From: Blastococcus sp. LR1
Lineage (GTDB): Bacteria > Actinomycetota > Actinomycetes > Mycobacteriales > Geodermatophilaceae
Length of the DNA: 64,000 nt
Direction of reading: 5' to 3'
NCBI RefSeq assembly: GCF_020166105.1
Contig: NZ_JAIUJY010000001.1
Location: 124,001-188,000 of the forward strand
Part shown: positions 47,366 to 54,186 of the stretch, one piece after another
Numbering within the stretch: position 1 is the stretch's first letter
Layout of the letters: every line of letters begins with the position of its first letter
Program-made: the position numbers and the translations under genes
Notes under the pieces: generated by a model
The model's input: the letters and a program-made list of their open reading frames with translations, nothing else
Database searches by the model: none
Told to the model about the DNA's origin: nothing

Positions 47366-47569
47366 GCTCCGCGCAGGACCGGGGAACGGTCCCCGCGATC
47401 GCCCGCCGGACCGGCCTCCCACCTGCTGGGATCACCGCTGCGAGCCGGTCGATGGCGGAGCGTGACGCCTCCGGCGTGTCGCGGAAAGGTCACAGCTCAG
47501 CACGCGGCAACAGCACCGACACAGAACCGGGTTAGGGTCCGACCTCAACAAATCCGTCTGGGAGGTCGA

Positions 47570-48877
47570 GTGACGCACGCGGGAAACCGTGCCCGCCGGC
47601 ATGGTCGTCGAGCGGGAACCCCCGTCGTCGTCCGACTGCTGCTGGTCCTGACGTTCGGGCTCGGCCTGGCCGCGCTGACGCCGGGCATCGCCTCGGCCGA
47701 GGGCGAGCAGGTCGCCGGCACGCTGCAGACCAGCCGGAGCGGCCCGATCGAGGGCATCGGCGTCACGGTCACCACGACCGCCGGTGAGGACGTCGACGAG
47801 GTCGAGACCGACGAGGACGGCCGCTGGGCGGTGGACCTCCCCGGTGCCGGTCAGTACACCGTCTCGATCGACGCCGACGACCTGCCCGACGGCGTCGAGC
47901 TCGCCGGCGAGGCCAGCCGCACCGTCACGGTCGACGACGGCCGGCGCCAGGCGGTCATCATCGGTCTCGAGGACGGCAGCCGCGGCTCCGGCGGCGGCAA
48001 CATCCAGGCCGTCCAGCTCCTCGTCGACGGCATCCGCTTCGGTCTGCTGATCGCGATGGCCGCCGTCGGCCTCTCGCTGATCTTCGGCACCACGGGGCTG
48101 ACCAACTTCGCGCACGGCGAGCTGGTCACGATCGGCGCGGTCGCCGGCTGGTACATCAACGTCTCCGGCGGCGTGAACCTGATCGTCGCGACCGTCCTGG
48201 CGATGGTCGTCGGCGCCGCGGTCGGGGCGCTGAACGAGCTGGCGCTCTGGCGGCCGCTGCGGCGGCGTGGCACGGGCCTGATCGCCGCGCTGGTGGTCTC
48301 GATCGGCCTGTCGCTGCTGCTGCGGTACCTGATCCAGATCGTCTACGGCGGCCGGTCGAGCCCCTACCAGGGCTTCTCGGGAGGGCGCGCCGTCGACTAC
48401 GGCCCCTTCACGATGACCAACGCCGACCTCGCCTCGGTGATCATCTCGATCGTCGTCCTCGTCCTCGTGGCCGTCATGCTGCAGCGGACGAAGATCGGCA
48501 AGGCCATGCGCGCCGTGTCCGACAACCGCGACCTCGCGGCGTCGTCGGGCATCGACGTGAACCGCGTCATCCTGGTCGTGTGGATGATGGGTGGCGCGCT
48601 CGCCGCACTGGGCGGCGTGCTGCTCGGCCTGTCCGACCAGGTGCAGTGGGACATGGGCTTCCGCCTGCTGCTCCTGATGTTCGCCGGTGTCACCCTGGGT
48701 GGCCTCGGCACCGCGTACGGCGCCCTCGTGGGCAGCCTGATCGTGGGTGTGTTCGTGCAGATGTCGACTCTCGTCATCCCGAATGACGTGAAGTACGTCG
48801 GAGGGCTGCTGCTCTTGATCGTCATCCTCGTCATCCGACCCCAGGGCATCCTGGGCAGCCGCGCACGGATCGGCTGA
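47570..48877 (+). CDS. livH: Branched-chain amino-acid ABC permease LivH with fused N-terminal extracytoplasmic domain
   Basis: One of two permease subunits. Start GTG 47570, GGAGG 5 nt upstream; 435 aa. Residues 1-45 form a signal peptide (basic RARRHGRRAG, hydrophobic core, cleavage near IASAEGEQ), then about 90 residues of beta-rich sequence (VAGTLQTSRSGPIEGIGVTV, ETDEDGRWAVDLPGAGQYTV) like a carboxypeptidase-regulatory/Cna-B fold. The LivH part from ~145 has TTGLTNFAHGELVTIGAVA and GILGSRARIG. Standard LivH is ~300 aa, so the domain is an addition. Confidence 0.92.
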   Translation: MTHAGNRARRHGRRAGTPVVVRLLLVLTFGLGLAALTPGIASAEGEQVAGTLQTSRSGPIEGIGVTVTTTAGEDVDEVETDEDGRWAVDLPGAGQYTVSIDADDLPDGVELAGEASRTVTVDDGRRQAVIIGLEDGSRGSGGGNIQAVQLLVDGIRFGLLIAMAAVGLSLIFGTTGLTNFAHGELVTIGAVAGWYINVSGGVNLIVATVLAMVVGAAVGALNELALWRPLRRRGTGLIAALVVSIGLSLLLRYLIQIVYGGRSSPYQGFSGGRAVDYGPFTMTNADLASVIISIVVLVLVAVMLQRTKIGKAMRAVSDNRDLAASSGIDVNRVILVVWMMGGALAALGGVLLGLSDQVQWDMGFRLLLLMFAGVTLGGLGTAYGALVGSLIVGVFVQMSTLVIPNDVKYVGGLLLLIVILVIRPQGILGSRARIG

Positions 48878-48880
48878 CCC

Positions 48881-49879
48881 ATGGCCGACCTCCTCAACGC
48901 CCTGGCCGTCGCGGGCAAGTCCGCGCTCGGGTTCCAGGCGATCTTCTTCGCGCTGCTGGCCATCGGCATCAACGTGCAGTTCGGCTACGCCGGCCTGCTG
49001 AACTTCGGCCAGATCGCCTTCGCGATGCTCGGCGGGTTCGGCATCGCCATCTCGGTCAGCAAGTGGGGCCTGCCCTTCTGGGTGGGCGTGCTGGTCGGCC
49101 TGGCGGCCGCCGTCGTGCTGGCCCTGCTCCTGGGTCTGCCGACGCTCCGGCTGCGCGCGGACTACCTGGCGATCGCGACGATCGCGACCGCCGAGGGCCT
49201 CCGCCTCTTGTTCCGCTCGGTATCGGCGACGCCGGTCACCAACGGAACCCGTGGCCTGTCGGCCTTCAACACCGACTTCATCGCGCTGGCGCCGTGGAAC
49301 ACCTCCCAGCGCTACTCGATCCTCGGGACCAGCTGGTCCGGTGGCGAGCTGTGGGTCGCGCTGGTCGGCTGGATCCTGGTGATCCTCGGCAGCCTGCTGG
49401 TCTTCGCGCTCATGCGCAGCCCCTGGGGCCGCGTGCTCAAGTCCATCCGCGAGGACGAGGACGCCGTCCGCGCGCTGGGCAAGAACGTCTACGTCTACAA
49501 GATGCAGGCGCTCGTGCTCGGCGGCATCTTCGGCGCCCTCGGCGGCATGGTCTACGCGGTGGGCACCGGCTCGGCCGTGCCGGACCAGTACCAGAACGCC
49601 AACACGTTCCTGGCCTACGCCGCACTGATCCTCGGCGGAGCGGCGCGGGTCCTCGGCCCCGTGATCGGCTCCATGATCCTGCTGTTCATCCTGCAGTTCG
49701 CCGACACCGGCCTGCGGCTGCTGATCAGCAACGGGATCATCCCCGAGGACCTGCTGTCCTCCACCGACGTCGCGCAGATCCGCTTCGTCCTCGTCGGACT
49801 CGGGCTCATGCTGCTGCTGATCTTCCGCCCTCAGGGCATCTTCGGGGACCGACGAGAGGTGATGCTCGATGCCCGCTGA
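48881..49879 (+). CDS. livM: Branched-chain amino-acid ABC permease LivM
   Basis: Second permease subunit, 332 aa with about nine membrane segments. Typical blocks: NVQFGYAGLLNFGQIAFAML, LRLRADYLAIATIATAEGLR, VLKSIREDEDAVRALGKNVY (contact loop for the ATPase) and a closing RPQGIFGDRREV. Starts three nt after livH ends. Its end overlaps livG by 11 nt. Confidence 0.95.
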   Translation: MADLLNALAVAGKSALGFQAIFFALLAIGINVQFGYAGLLNFGQIAFAMLGGFGIAISVSKWGLPFWVGVLVGLAAAVVLALLLGLPTLRLRADYLAIATIATAEGLRLLFRSVSATPVTNGTRGLSAFNTDFIALAPWNTSQRYSILGTSWSGGELWVALVGWILVILGSLLVFALMRSPWGRVLKSIREDEDAVRALGKNVYVYKMQALVLGGIFGALGGMVYAVGTGSAVPDQYQNANTFLAYAALILGGAARVLGPVIGSMILLFILQFADTGLRLLISNGIIPEDLLSSTDVAQIRFVLVGLGLMLLLIFRPQGIFGDRREVMLDAR

Positions 49880-50873
49880 CCTTCCACCGCACGGTGCGAC
49901 GGCCTCCGGCGCCGGCACGACCGGGGCCGCTCCCCAGCGACTGGCCCAGGCGGCGCTGCGCGACCTCCCCTGGGAGGTCGGCGTGCCCAAGCCCGACGCT
50001 GCCGTGGTCGTCGACGGCGTCACCCGCACGTTCGGCGGTCTGACCGCGGTCTCGGTGGACCACCTGGAGATCCAGCGCGGTGGCATCACCGGGCTGATCG
50101 GGCCGAACGGCGCCGGCAAGACGACGCTGTTCAACCTGCTCACCGGCTTCGACCAGCCGGACACCGGCACCTGGTCGTTCAACGGCCAGTCACTGGGCAA
50201 GATGTCGCCGCACCAGGTCGCCCGGCTCGGCGTCGTCCGCACCTTCCAGCTCACCAAGGCGCTCTCCCGGCTCACCGTGCTGCAGAACATGCTGCTCGGC
50301 GCGCAGGGCCAGCGCGGTGAGAGCTTCTTCCGCGCCCTGGTGCCCGGCACCTGGCGGGCGCAGGAGAAGGCGAACACCGAGAAGGCGATGGACCTGCTCC
50401 AGCGGTTCAAGCTCGATGCCAAGAAGGACGATTTCGCCGGCATCCTCTCCGGCGGGCAGCGCAAGCTGCTGGAGATGGCGCGGGCCCTGATGAGCGACCC
50501 GCAGGTCGTCATGCTCGACGAGCCGATGGCCGGCGTGAACCCCGCGCTCACCCAGAGCCTGCTCGGCCACGTCAAGGACCTCCGCGAGGAGGGGATGACG
50601 GTGATCTTCGTCGAGCACGACATGGACGTCGTCCGCGACATCAGCGACTGGGTCGTGGTCATGTCCGCGGGCAAGATCATCGCCGAGGGCCCGCCCGAGT
50701 CGATCAGCCAGAACCAGGCAGTCGTGGACGCCTACCTCGGCGCCCACCACGACGCCCCGCTCACCGTCGAGGACGAGGACCGGGTGCTGGCCGAGGTCGA
50801 GGCGGAGATCGCCCGCGAGGAGCACCGGGACACCCCGGGCTCCGCCGACAGCAGCAAGGGGACGGGCCGATGA
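49869..50873 (+). CDS. livG: Branched-chain amino-acid ABC ATPase LivG
   Basis: ATPase subunit, 334 aa. Walker A GPNGAGKTT at ~78-86, Q-loop TFQLTKALSRLTVLQNML, signature LSGGQ, Walker B VVMLDEPMAG and switch His in VFVEHDMDVV-type block. About 45 extra N-terminal residues and a ~50-residue acidic C-terminal tail are added to the usual ~255 aa. Overlaps livF by 4 nt. Confidence 0.95.
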   Translation: MPADLPPHGATASGAGTTGAAPQRLAQAALRDLPWEVGVPKPDAAVVVDGVTRTFGGLTAVSVDHLEIQRGGITGLIGPNGAGKTTLFNLLTGFDQPDTGTWSFNGQSLGKMSPHQVARLGVVRTFQLTKALSRLTVLQNMLLGAQGQRGESFFRALVPGTWRAQEKANTEKAMDLLQRFKLDAKKDDFAGILSGGQRKLLEMARALMSDPQVVMLDEPMAGVNPALTQSLLGHVKDLREEGMTVIFVEHDMDVVRDISDWVVVMSAGKIIAEGPPESISQNQAVVDAYLGAHHDAPLTVEDEDRVLAEVEAEIAREEHRDTPGSADSSKGTGR

Positions 50874-51721
50874 GCGAGCCGGTGTTCGAGGTCGACGAGA
50901 CGGGCGAGGAGGTCACCCGCGCCGACCTGGCGGAGAGCGCCGAGCTCTCCCCCGCGGAGAAGGCCGCGACCCGCGAGGAGCATGTGCGGCTCGCCGAGGG
51001 CGCCCTCGTGCGCGCCGACGACCTGATCGCCGGCTACGTGCCGGGCGTGAACATCCTCCGTGGCTGCGACTTCTACCTGCAGGAGGGCGAGCTCGTCGGC
51101 ATCATCGGCCCGAACGGCGCCGGCAAGTCGACGCTGCTCAAGGCGCTCTTCGGGCTCATCCCGGTGCGGTCGGGTGCGGTGACCCTGCGCGGCGAGAACA
51201 TCACCTCGGCGCCCGCACACCGGCTCGTGTCGCTCGGCGTCGGGTACGTCCCCCAGAACAACAACGTGTTCCCCTCCCTCACGCTCGAGGAGAACATGCA
51301 GATGGGCGTCTACCTGCGGCCGAAGACCTTCAAGGAGCGCTTCGACTACGTCGTCGACCTCTTCCCGCTGCTGGGCGAGCGGCGCAAGGCCAAGGCGGGC
51401 ACCCTCTCCGGCGGTGAGCGGCAGATGGTCGCCATGGGCCGGGCGCTGATGATGGACCCGTCGGTGCTGCTGCTCGACGAGCCGTCGGCGGGCCTCTCCC
51501 CCGCCTACCAGGACGAGGTCTTCATCCGCTGCCGCCGGATCAACGCCACCGGCGTCTCGATCATCATGGTCGAGCAGAACGCCCGCCGGTGCCTGCAGAT
51601 CTGCGACCGCGGCTACGTGCTCGACCAGGGGCGGAACGCCTACACCGACACCGGGGCGTCGCTGATGAACGACCCGAAGGTCATCGAGCTCTACCTGGGC
51701 ACGCTGGCCAAGGCCCAGTAG
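50870..51721 (+). CDS. livF: Branched-chain amino-acid ABC ATPase LivF
   Basis: Second ATPase subunit, 283 aa. Walker A GPNGAGKST, YVPQNNNVFPSLTLEENM (Q-loop), signature LSGGE, Walker B VLLLDEPSAGLS, and EQNARRCL after. A ~45-residue acidic N-terminal extension precedes LVRADDLIAGYVPG. Last gene of livHMGF, followed by the hairpin at 51739. Confidence 0.95.
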   Translation: MSEPVFEVDETGEEVTRADLAESAELSPAEKAATREEHVRLAEGALVRADDLIAGYVPGVNILRGCDFYLQEGELVGIIGPNGAGKSTLLKALFGLIPVRSGAVTLRGENITSAPAHRLVSLGVGYVPQNNNVFPSLTLEENMQMGVYLRPKTFKERFDYVVDLFPLLGERRKAKAGTLSGGERQMVAMGRALMMDPSVLLLDEPSAGLSPAYQDEVFIRCRRINATGVSIIMVEQNARRCLQICDRGYVLDQGRNAYTDTGASLMNDPKVIELYLGTLAKAQ

Positions 51722-51738
51722 GCCCCCCTTCGTCCCCT

Positions 51739-51775
51739 CGCAGCGCCGGTCCCCTTCCAGGGGGCCGGCGCTGCG
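51739..51775 (+). terminator. Terminator of the liv operon
   Basis: CGCAGCGCCGG / CCGGCGCTGCG, 11-bp perfect stem extended inside by CCCC/GGGG, 18 nt after livF. Confidence 0.82.
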
Positions 51776-51919
51776 GCGTTCGAGGGTGTCCGCCGGCGAC
51801 GTCGGCGTGAAGCGTCCGCTGGGGACCGGCTCATGGCGTCGTCCTCACCTCCGGAACGGCGTCCACGCGGTCGAGCTCGAGGACGGCGTGCCGAGGGCGA
51901 GGACGGCGGGTGGCTCACA

Positions 51920-51952
51920 GGAGCCCGGACAGCACCGGAGCCCGGACAGCAC
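51920..51952. repeat. Two tandem 16-bp repeats
   Basis: GGAGCCCGGACAGCAC at 51920-51935 and again at 51937-51952, one base apart. They sit between the liv operon end and the hairpins that follow the solute-binding gene. Confidence 0.6.
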
Positions 51953-51987
51953 AGTGGCGCGGCACCCCGGGGTGCCGGGCCACTGTG
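51950..51987. terminator. Interrupted-stem hairpin downstream of the solute-binding gene
   Basis: CACAGTGGC-GC-GGCACCCC folds onto GGGGTGCC-GG-GCCACTGTG with a 2-nt internal mismatch on each side. It lies about 35 nt past the solute-binding gene stop and next to a second hairpin. Confidence 0.6.
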
Positions 51988-51994
51988 GTGGCTC

Positions 51995-52016
51995 CTACCG
52001 GGTCAGGACCCGGTAG
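51995..52016 (-). terminator. Terminator of the solute-binding protein gene
   Basis: Perfect 10-bp stem CTACCGGGTC / GACCCGGTAG around AG, six nt after the stop at 52023 on the minus strand. Confidence 0.7.
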
Positions 52017-52022
52017 CGGGGA

Positions 52023-53348
52023 TCAGCGCTGCGGGCCGACCCCGTTCTGGTTCAGGCTCTCCAGGATCCGCGAGGACTCCTCGAAGCCGATGACCACGAT
52101 CGCGTCGGGGTTGAACTCCACCATCTCCTGGACCTCGGAGTCGAAGTTCGCGGCCTGCGGGTCGTAGGTGATGCTGACGATGTCGTCCTCGGCGAGGCCG
52201 GCGTCGATCAGGTTCTGCTTCGTGTTGTCCGACAGGCCCGTGCCGTACGGGTCGTTGAGGGCAAGGATCCCGACGGTGTTGTTGCCGTCCTCGATGATGA
52301 GGTCGGACAGGGCGCGAGCCTGCAGGGTGTCCGGCGGCGCGGTGCGGAAGTACAGACCGTTGTCGTTGTAGGTCGTGAACTGGTCCGACGTGTTGGCCGG
52401 CGAGATCTGCATGACACCGGCGCCGGTGATGGCGTCGATGACGGTCAGGCTCACGCCGGACGAGGCGGCGCCCACGATCGCGTTGACGCCGGACTGCAGG
52501 AGGCGGTCGACGGTCTGCGTGGCCGTGTCGGTCGAGGCGTCACCGGAGTCACCCTCGACGAGCTGCACGGGCTGTCCGAAGACGCCGCCGGCCGCGTTGA
52601 TGTCCTGGATGGCGAGCTTGGCGCCGGCGACCTCGGGCGGGCCGAGGAACGCGAGGTTCCCGGTCAGCGGGAGGAGCGTGCCGATGACCAGCGGCTCGCC
52701 GGCGGCGGCAGCCGCGGCCGGGGCCGGGCCTTCGTCGGTGGCGGCGTTGGCCTCGTCACCGGCGATGACGAACTCGGTGGCGTCGTTGTCGATCTGGTTG
52801 TCGTCGCCGAACTGCTGGAGGCCGAAGCTGGCCTGAGCGGGCTCACCGGCGTCGGCGAAGCTCAGCGGACCCGACTGGCCGTCGTAGTCCACGTTGCCGC
52901 CGCCACCGAGGATCTCCGCGCAGCTGGCGAAGTCCTCGCAGGCGTCCCCACCGAAGGTGAGGCCGTTCATGTAGTCCTTGAAGACGTTGGCGTCGTTGGT
53001 GCCGGCCGACTGAGCGGCCAGGGCGACCAGGACGACGGCGTCGTAGGTCTCGCCGGCGTAGTTGAAGTCCTGGAGGTCGGGGTCGACCTCCATGAGGCGG
53101 TCGCGGAACTCCTGCGAGAGGTCCGTGAGGGGCAACGTGCCCTTCATGCCGGCGAGCGCGCCCTCCTCGGAGAAGTCCTCTCCGAGGGCGTTGCCCATGT
53201 TGCCGTCGGTCCCGTAGACGTTGACCTGCTTCTCGCCGCTGTCGCCGGAGTCCGCGGTGTCGCCGCTGTCGCCGCCGCCACAGGCGGTGAGGGCGAGGAG
53301 GGCGGCACCGGTCACGGCGATGCCTCGGGCAGTGGTGCCAGTGCGCAT
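52023..53348 (-). CDS. livK: Branched-chain amino-acid solute-binding lipoprotein with circularly permuted halves
   Basis: Lipoprotein that would deliver ligand to LivHMGF. Start chosen at ATG 53348, GGGAG 7 nt upstream; 441 aa. Lipobox LTAC gives Cys23, then an Asp/Ser/Gly linker. Residues ~42-200 begin VNVYGTDGNMGNALG and correspond to the C-terminal half of normal LivK proteins; a linker (DEGPAPAAAAAAGEP) follows; residues ~218-441 begin LVIGTLLPLTGNLAFLGPPE, the normal N-terminal half, and end ILESLNQNGVGPQR, the usual lead-in to YGTDG. The reading frame is uninterrupted. The gene is convergent with livF. Confidence 0.9.
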   Translation of the reverse strand: MRTGTTARGIAVTGAALLALTACGGGDSGDTADSGDSGEKQVNVYGTDGNMGNALGEDFSEEGALAGMKGTLPLTDLSQEFRDRLMEVDPDLQDFNYAGETYDAVVLVALAAQSAGTNDANVFKDYMNGLTFGGDACEDFASCAEILGGGGNVDYDGQSGPLSFADAGEPAQASFGLQQFGDDNQIDNDATEFVIAGDEANAATDEGPAPAAAAAAGEPLVIGTLLPLTGNLAFLGPPEVAGAKLAIQDINAAGGVFGQPVQLVEGDSGDASTDTATQTVDRLLQSGVNAIVGAASSGVSLTVIDAITGAGVMQISPANTSDQFTTYNDNGLYFRTAPPDTLQARALSDLIIEDGNNTVGILALNDPYGTGLSDNTKQNLIDAGLAEDDIVSITYDPQAANFDSEVQEMVEFNPDAIVVIGFEESSRILESLNQNGVGPQR

Positions 53349-53483
53349 CAAGCAACTCCCAGTGTCATCTGACAAGCGTCGGACGCGCCTCGCGGGAGGA
53401 CCCGGTCGGGGAGGCGCCCGATCAGTGGGCAGAACGTAGCTGCCGATTCCGCCGATCGGTCCAGACCCCGAAGCGATAGTGAT

Positions 53484-53497
53484 GAGGTCGTGACCTC
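53484..53497. promoter_or_regulatory. Palindrome upstream of the solute-binding gene
   Basis: GAGGTC-GT-GACCTC, ~135 nt upstream of the solute-binding protein start and ~90 nt past the pdtaR end. Could be an operator for a GntR/LysR-type regulator; no regulator gene is adjacent. Low certainty. Confidence 0.25.
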
Positions 53498-53586
53498 GAT
53501 GACGTCAGCGGGACGAAACGAGCACAGAACGTGCGCGGTCGATGACGAAGCGCTTTGACAGGCTGTGGTGAGGCCCGGGCGGACGA

Positions 53587-54186
53587 TCAGGCGGGCGCTT
53601 CGCCCGCTGCGGCACTCCCGGTGAGGATCGCCTCGGCCAGCGCCTTCATGCTCGTGCGCTGGTTCATCGCCGTGCGCTGGATCCAGCGGAAGGCCTCGGC
53701 CTCGGTCATGCCCTGGTCGCTCATCAGGCGGCCCTTGGCCTGCTCGACCACCTTGCGGGTCTCCAGCCGCTCCTCGAGGGTCCGCACCTCGCCGTCCAGC
53801 GCCGTCATCTCCGCGAAGCGGCCCCGGGCCACCTCGATGGCGGGGACCAGGTCGTTCTTGGAGAAGGGCTTCACCAGGTAGGCCATGGCACCGGCGTCCC
53901 GCGCCCGCTCCACCAGCTCGCGCTGGCTGAAGGCGGTCAGCACGATCACCGGGGCGATCCGGGCCGTCGCGATCTGCTCCGCGGCCGAGAGCCCGTCGAG
54001 CACCGGCATCTGGATGTCGAGGATGACCAGGTCCGGGTTCAGCTCGCGCGCGCGGTCGACCGCCTGCTGCCCGTCGCCGACCTCCGCGACGACGCTGTAC
54101 CCCTCCTCCTCGAGCATCTCCTTGAGATCGAGGCGGATCAGGGCCTCGTCCTCGGCGATCAGGACGCGGATCGGATCGGTGCTCAC
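53587..54186 (-). CDS. pdtaR: ANTAR-domain response regulator (PdtaR-like)
   Basis: Phosphorylation-dependent antiterminator: receiver domain at residues 1-120 (VLIAEDEALIRLDLKEML, PDLVILDIQMPVLDG with the phospho-Asp, VIVLTAFSQ, YLVKPFSKNDL), then an ANTAR RNA-binding helical domain (VVEQAKGRLMSDQGMTEAEA). 199 aa. The partner kinase (PdtaS) is not in the window. Placement near polA, tesB and pyk parallels M. tuberculosis Rv1626. Confidence 0.92.
   Translation of the reverse strand: MSTDPIRVLIAEDEALIRLDLKEMLEEEGYSVVAEVGDGQQAVDRARELNPDLVILDIQMPVLDGLSAAEQIATARIAPVIVLTAFSQRELVERARDAGAMAYLVKPFSKNDLVPAIEVARGRFAEMTALDGEVRTLEERLETRKVVEQAKGRLMSDQGMTEAEAFRWIQRTAMNQRTSMKALAEAILTGSAAAGEAPA

Follow-up and report, generated by a model that had tools for sequence, protein, structure and literature searches.

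A circularly permuted LivK-type binding lipoprotein in Blastococcus sp. LR1 and the probably repeated permutation of its locus in Actinomycetota

The 64,000-nucleotide stretch of Blastococcus sp. LR1 analysed here (the window; contig NZ_JAIUJY010000001.1, positions 124,001 to 188,000) carries on its minus strand, at 52023..53348, a gene whose product is supported as a circularly permuted LivK-type binding lipoprotein by its block order, alignment, positional orthology, predicted fold and structure alignment. It is very probably a working LivK-type (HAAT) binding lipoprotein of the adjacent LivHMGF importer that arose by duplication in place, at a locus that has been permuted about five times at two neighbouring sites.

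The gene is a single intact open reading frame (ORF) of 441 amino acids with full-length relatives, running from an ATG at 53346-53348 to a TGA at 52023-52025, and an earlier note on this DNA had also read it as one intact frame. All of the following parts lie on the minus strand. The signal peptide (residues 1-22, 53283..53348) ends in a lipobox, LTAC at residues 20-23, which was recognized by eye and gives the protein the export signal expected of a LivK/HAAT member; Cys23 (53280..53282) is the predicted lipid-anchor residue. A lipobox pattern is matched by 48 of the 51 permuted rows listed. A Gly/Asp/Ser spacer follows (residues 24-40, 53229..53279), and in the AlphaFold model of the mature protein the predicted local distance difference test score (pLDDT) is below 50 at residues 1-15. 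The first block after the spacer (residues 41-199, 52752..53228) starts QVNVYGTDG and opens with QVNVYGTDGNMGNAL; in LivK-type proteins this block comes after mid-chain and is C-terminal. It is followed by an internal linker of 20 residues, ANAATDEGPAPAAAAAAGEP (residues 200-219, 52692..52751), which bridges the two original chain ends, C-terminus to N-terminus, and whose start falls at about the end of the Rhodococcus L122 protein in the alignment. The last block (residues 220-441, 52026..52691), assigned by Pfam and alignment, starts LVIGTLLPLTG, is N-terminal in normal LivK, and terminates in ...NQNGVGPQR, the exact point where normal proteins run into YGTDG. The succession proposed in the earlier note, of lipobox, linker, C-terminal block, second linker and N-terminal block, is thereby borne out.

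The Pfam family PF13458 (Peripla_BP_6) matches the permuted protein in two stretches with 126.8 bits against a cut-off of 31.7, the better stretch placing protein residues 220-439 on profile positions 2-217 of 343; a search of NCBIfam returned no family above its cut-off. Once the two blocks are rearranged into canonical order, the sequence can be aligned continuously from one end to the other with its unpermuted counterpart from Rhodococcus sp. ARC_M5 (L122), a comparison of the kind that the earlier note had proposed as a check. AlphaFold predicts a confident fold for the permuted protein in which the canonical elements appear in rotated order, so that the linear order that marks LivK/HAAT proteins is not kept. 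The cut lies between a helix (H211-220) and a strand (E230-234), a split of the kind the earlier note described. A sequential structure alignment covers about half of the permuted model, 218 residues in the best alignment, whereas the unpermuted orthologue aligns whole. Among the best 50 Foldseek rows against the PDB, 201-267 columns were aligned, except in one of 318 columns at a root-mean-square deviation of 20.8; the best 50 VIA-align rows covered 210-225 residues, nearly all of them within residues 189-419, with 4n03 aligned from residue 92. No solved permuted structure was noticed among these PDB rows. Methods that compare profiles or structures sequentially give most of their score to one half of a permuted protein, and more permuted proteins may therefore hide in annotated families.

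The gene adjoins livHMGF, as is characteristic of LivK/HAAT genes. The f10 genome G057 encodes an unpermuted protein that shares 58% identity with the permuted one over the N half and 45% over the C half; its gene is flanked by a similar response regulator and a convergent livF, and the Geodermatophilaceae permuted proteins as a group share 50-61% identity with this protein in the N half. The order that recurs is a response regulator followed by livK, which converges on a livF-livG-livM-livH run, and the whole is often bounded by pyk at one end and polA at the opposite end; it holds a permuted livK in L094 and L096-L098 and a canonical livK in, for example, L115, L122, L125 and L152. Since permuted and canonical livK share one gene neighbourhood, the permutation most likely took place in situ. 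LivM also lies within 5 kb of the permuted gene in G617, G494, G589, G895 and G1037.

Within the Geodermatophilaceae, collinear full-length matches to the permuted protein were found in 28 of 36 genomes (that of the window included) at 61-100% identity and were absent from the other 8; the earlier note had suggested looking for the same order in related genomes. Identical junctions occur in named isolates and in metagenome-assembled genomes (MAGs) across many assemblies. In each of the 17 pairs tested, the ratio of nonsynonymous to synonymous substitution rates (dN/dS, NG86) falls in the range 0.03-0.45 for either half, and both halves are under purifying selection; the linker is looser, at 0.09-0.96. 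One Geodermatophilaceae genome carries a second, divergent permuted copy (G025:C11:38989-40314, L092).

Taken together, the loci read yielded 276 distinct homologous ORFs, of which 159 are canonical and 117 permuted by the order of their profile matches. The permuted ORFs have one of two breakpoints some 20 residues apart. Breakpoint A (82 ORFs) starts at the YGTDG-type strand and ends about GIGP, and is found in the Geodermatophilaceae, the Micromonosporaceae, f13, f39, f49, f41 and genomes labelled Nonomuraea sp. SYSU D8015 and Streptomyces sp. GESEQ-4. Breakpoint B (35 ORFs) starts LEGMKGT and ends ...YGTDGNMGNALGENFDAGK or similar, and is found in f81, f68, f122 and two MAGs (L100, from the Acidimicrobiales, and L103). 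Genome surveys, all confined to Actinomycetota, give counts of match spans, block order having been read from the ORFs at the selected loci alone. In f81, 54 matches of permuted-type span occurred in 52 of 150 genomes, and the junctions served to class 30 distinct ORFs of f81; such spans occurred in 2 of 35 genomes of f68 and 10 of 149 of f41, and in 11 of 394 genomes of the class and 6 of 296 of the phylum, the family, class and phylum surveys having used a permuted profile (A1) that favours this breakpoint region. Repeated with a canonical profile (A3), the class survey matched 155 of 394 genomes. Among the canonical-profile matches listed, those that were split, in G011, G000 and G589, broke at about position 225, and no other split site was seen except for a fragment at a contig end. 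In one genome two matches of breakpoint-B span stand in tandem (G1110:C22:10757-13243, minus strand).

In trees of the rearranged proteins, from which near-copies, long branches, partial matches and L100 and L228 (frame-broken or cut) had been removed, L100 being retained in one tree, the permuted genes fall in five places. Lineage 1 comprises the Geodermatophilaceae, f13 and the Micromonosporaceae and lies beside canonical genes of the Rhodococcus/Gordonia type; lineage 2 joins f39 and f49; lineage 3 joins f41 and the genomes named Nonomuraea and Streptomyces, among Nocardioidaceae; lineage 4 holds most breakpoint-B genes; and lineage 5 holds the breakpoint-B genes of f68, beside a canonical gene of the Acidimicrobiaceae. 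The starred branches of these trees force five changes of state, with a bootstrap range of 5-5. In approximately unbiased (AU) tests a single clade of all permuted rows is rejected (p 8.5e-9), as is a single clade of breakpoint A (p 9.7e-87). Trees of the separate halves need 5 (N half) and 6 (C half) changes between canonical and permuted order. Several results weigh against a count of five. A single clade of breakpoint B is rejected only weakly (p 0.012 and 0.035 in two tests); the starred branches of the half trees force only 3 changes for the N half and 5 for the C half; the N-half tree nests canonical f8 and f15 rows within lineage 1, and lineage 2 is broken up in the C-half tree. The support for lineage 1 as one origin is weak (90/66, 79/93 and 57/45 in three trees), and that for the pairing of f68 with the Acidimicrobiaceae canonical gene falls from 97/82, in the tree that retained L100, to 58/28 in another. 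The number of changes could accordingly be 4 to 6, and four or more independent permutations of the locus in Actinomycetota, most likely five, are indicated. The linker was considered as a shared derived mark of lineage 1 and set aside, being too similar to the canonical C-terminus to prove a single origin. The permuted genes of L112 and L114, from the records named Nonomuraea and Streptomyces, cluster tightly with f41, probably Nocardioidaceae, a placement that reflects transfer or else assemblies that carry a wrong label or contamination.

As for the route, livK was most likely duplicated in tandem at the locus and the copies fused in frame, after which the outer halves were lost, with the cut at a tolerant site; the permutation would have occurred in place and moved the lipid anchor. 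Tandem unpermuted livK genes accompany the liv genes in L127, L129 (three copies), L132, L153 and L164, whereas in L158 no liv gene was seen near the tandem copies; further unpermuted tandem pairs occur in G575, G738, G546, G627 and G710. Relatives therefore commonly carry the copies from which such a duplication, fusion and trimming could start. A canonical-like GDGxL stretch is kept before the old first strand in many breakpoint-B genes. Against this route, a fused or half-trimmed intermediate, with two N blocks or two whole C blocks, is absent among the 276 ORFs. The earlier note's proposal of a tandem duplication with loss of the outer halves is thus plausible, favoured by the tandem copies in relatives and lacking its intermediate among the ORFs read.

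We lean, if modestly, towards a broader account in which a single transporter gene, orthologous by position, underwent permutation at least four and probably five times, the cuts all lying within about 25 residues of one another, and in which this recurrence would reflect a site that tolerates re-cutting, a locus prone to tandem duplication, and a LivH whose extracytoplasmic beta-sandwich-like domain tolerates or rewards the move of the anchor to the other lobe. By rough arithmetic, five random cuts in 382 residues would fall within 25 of one another about once in 10,000 trials, a figure that serves as a pointer only, the searches being biased to this region.

Given the retained neighbours and the invariance of the pocket-type residues, the gene is best read as encoding a working binding protein for LivHMGF. 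S275, T298, Y346 and D26 (mature numbering) are invariant in 20 of 20 permuted proteins, and the matching S83, T106, Y154 and D235 in 28 of 28 canonical proteins; from LIVBP, we take these to be ligand-pocket positions. Ligand binding and transport with LivHMGF are accordingly to be expected of the product. After the anchor, the chain would run through the YGTDG strand to the old C-terminus, reach the old N-terminus by way of the flexible Ala/Pro linker and finish at the helix that precedes YGTDG, and the two-lobed fold and its pocket would form unchanged with the anchor entering elsewhere. The lipid anchor now joins the YGTDG strand rather than the old first strand. These two strands presumably lie in different lobes, as in LIVBP, and if so the anchor would attach to the other lobe.

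A transport role with LivHMGF is unlikely for some relatives, namely the permuted proteins of the Micromonosporaceae and of the f13 genome G163, because the Micromonosporaceae gene is an orphan and no LivM match was found in G163. At 11 Micromonosporaceae loci (L099, L102, L104-L111 and L113) the orphan lipoprotein gene has no liv genes in flanks of up to 6 kb, apart from a livG-like match of 28% in L102; the best LivM match reaches at most 36% identity in G050, G298, G340, G089 and G115, and the group sits on a long branch (0.57). The genome G128 (f16) additionally carries an unpermuted gene on the same contig as its LivM. In L104 the permuted gene of the Micromonosporaceae adjoins genes for an enoyl-CoA hydratase and a 3-hydroxyacyl-CoA dehydrogenase.

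The orphaned Micromonosporaceae copies, with their distant LivM matches and long branch, are what might be expected if the permuted protein served in sensing or scavenging and the change of order marked a switch of role. We consider this quite unlikely, the gene lying near livM in the window and in other lineages and the pocket-type positions being kept in permuted and canonical alignments alike. An artefact of assembly or annotation, with both junctions chimeric, is scarcely credible in view of the full-length collinear matches in the family and the purifying selection on both halves; mis-assembly in particular is very unlikely because the same junctions recur in the isolates and MAGs of many separate assemblies. 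A re-joining of separate half genes in swapped order, by fission and fusion in place of duplication, would leave the same end product; it is the duplication route that finds whole tandem copies at the locus in relatives, and fission and fusion appear unlikely.

Could all permuted genes descend from one ancient permutation, followed by transfer or by reversion to canonical order? Breakpoint A is equal within a few residues across three lineages, the trees place lineage 1 next to the main breakpoint-B lineage, and the rejection of a single breakpoint-B clade is weak, all of which fit a single origin. The breakpoints are nevertheless two and distinct, the AU tests reject one clade both for all permuted genes and for breakpoint A, the permuted lineages are placed beside canonical genes, and each reversion would be the same complex event in reverse, required several times. 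A single origin is therefore very unlikely, and repeated permutation of the locus is preferred.

The permuted protein resembles LivK/LivJ (HAAT, PF13458, type I; e.g., 3ipc, 3td9, 4gnr and 4n0q) in that both halves are homologous, the livHMGF neighbours are present and the predicted fold is two-lobed; it differs in its swapped block order, its extra internal linker and the attachment of its anchor elsewhere along the old chain. In the literature search, the only natural example noticed of a permuted binding protein with the type I fold was Tp0684 (TpMglB-2) of Treponema pallidum, a circularly permuted glucose-binding lipoprotein termed "Type Ic", in which the first three N-lobe strands are relocated to the C-terminus; the excerpted text of its description presents one widespread class and names anchoring as a possible reason for the permutation (PMC4990184). 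Going by that excerpt, both are tethered type I binding proteins that have been circularly permuted in nature, as known here from the predicted fold, and they are set apart by the sugar family of Tp0684 and by the cut site, 222 residues having moved in the present protein. Permutation by duplication is an established model, exemplified in the excerpted source by DNA methyltransferases and saposin/swaposin (PMC3320104). The route proposed here is the same, with tandem livK copies in relatives; unlike those examples, as far as the excerpt describes them, it involves several origins in one orthologous livK and two adjacent breakpoints, with no intermediates seen. The open-licence literature searched yielded neither a permuted LivK nor a case in which one orthologous gene had been permuted repeatedly. 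OpuAC, considered as another permuted case, was set aside, the terms sought being absent from PMC2861598.

Permuted and unpermuted orthologues standing in one neighbourhood, several times over, amount to a natural test of how much freedom there is in re-cutting a working protein. This comparative material allows tests of how a permutation originates, what it costs and how neighbouring sites come to be reused, and also of whether the tethering side of a binding protein matters to an ATP-binding cassette (ABC) importer.

The importer genes of the window all lie on the plus strand. LivH (47462..48877) is a permease (PF02653, 159.6 bits) with an N-terminal extracytoplasmic CarboxypepD_reg-like extension (PF13620, 30.6 bits, just below the cut-off of 32.3); it is followed by the permease LivM (48881..49879; PF02653, 138.9 bits), the ATPase LivG (49869..50873; ABC_tran and BCA_ABC_TP_C) and the ATPase LivF (50870..51721), which was assigned by profile match and synteny and is convergent with the permuted livK. 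On the other side of livK, at 53587..54186 on the minus strand, the conserved neighbour is an ANTAR-type response regulator, likewise assigned by profile match and synteny. The Shine-Dalgarno sequence claimed in the earlier note corresponds to a GGGAG at 53356..53360 (minus strand), 7 nt upstream of the ATG, recognized by eye. The terminator that it also claimed was not confirmed: a consensus scan of 51650-53600 returned neither terminators nor promoters, and the G+C-rich hairpin seen by eye directly past the stop codon (51995..52016, strand unassigned) has no T run. The LivH extension, of 125-396 amino acids, is open in 57 of 59 LivH rows (the window and the LivH genes of L094-L173). Of 9 relatives, 8 show a PF13620 match in it at E <= 1e-3, 3 of these exceeding the cut-off, and this CarboxypepD_reg-like (beta-sandwich) domain ahead of the permease core accompanies permuted and canonical livK alike.
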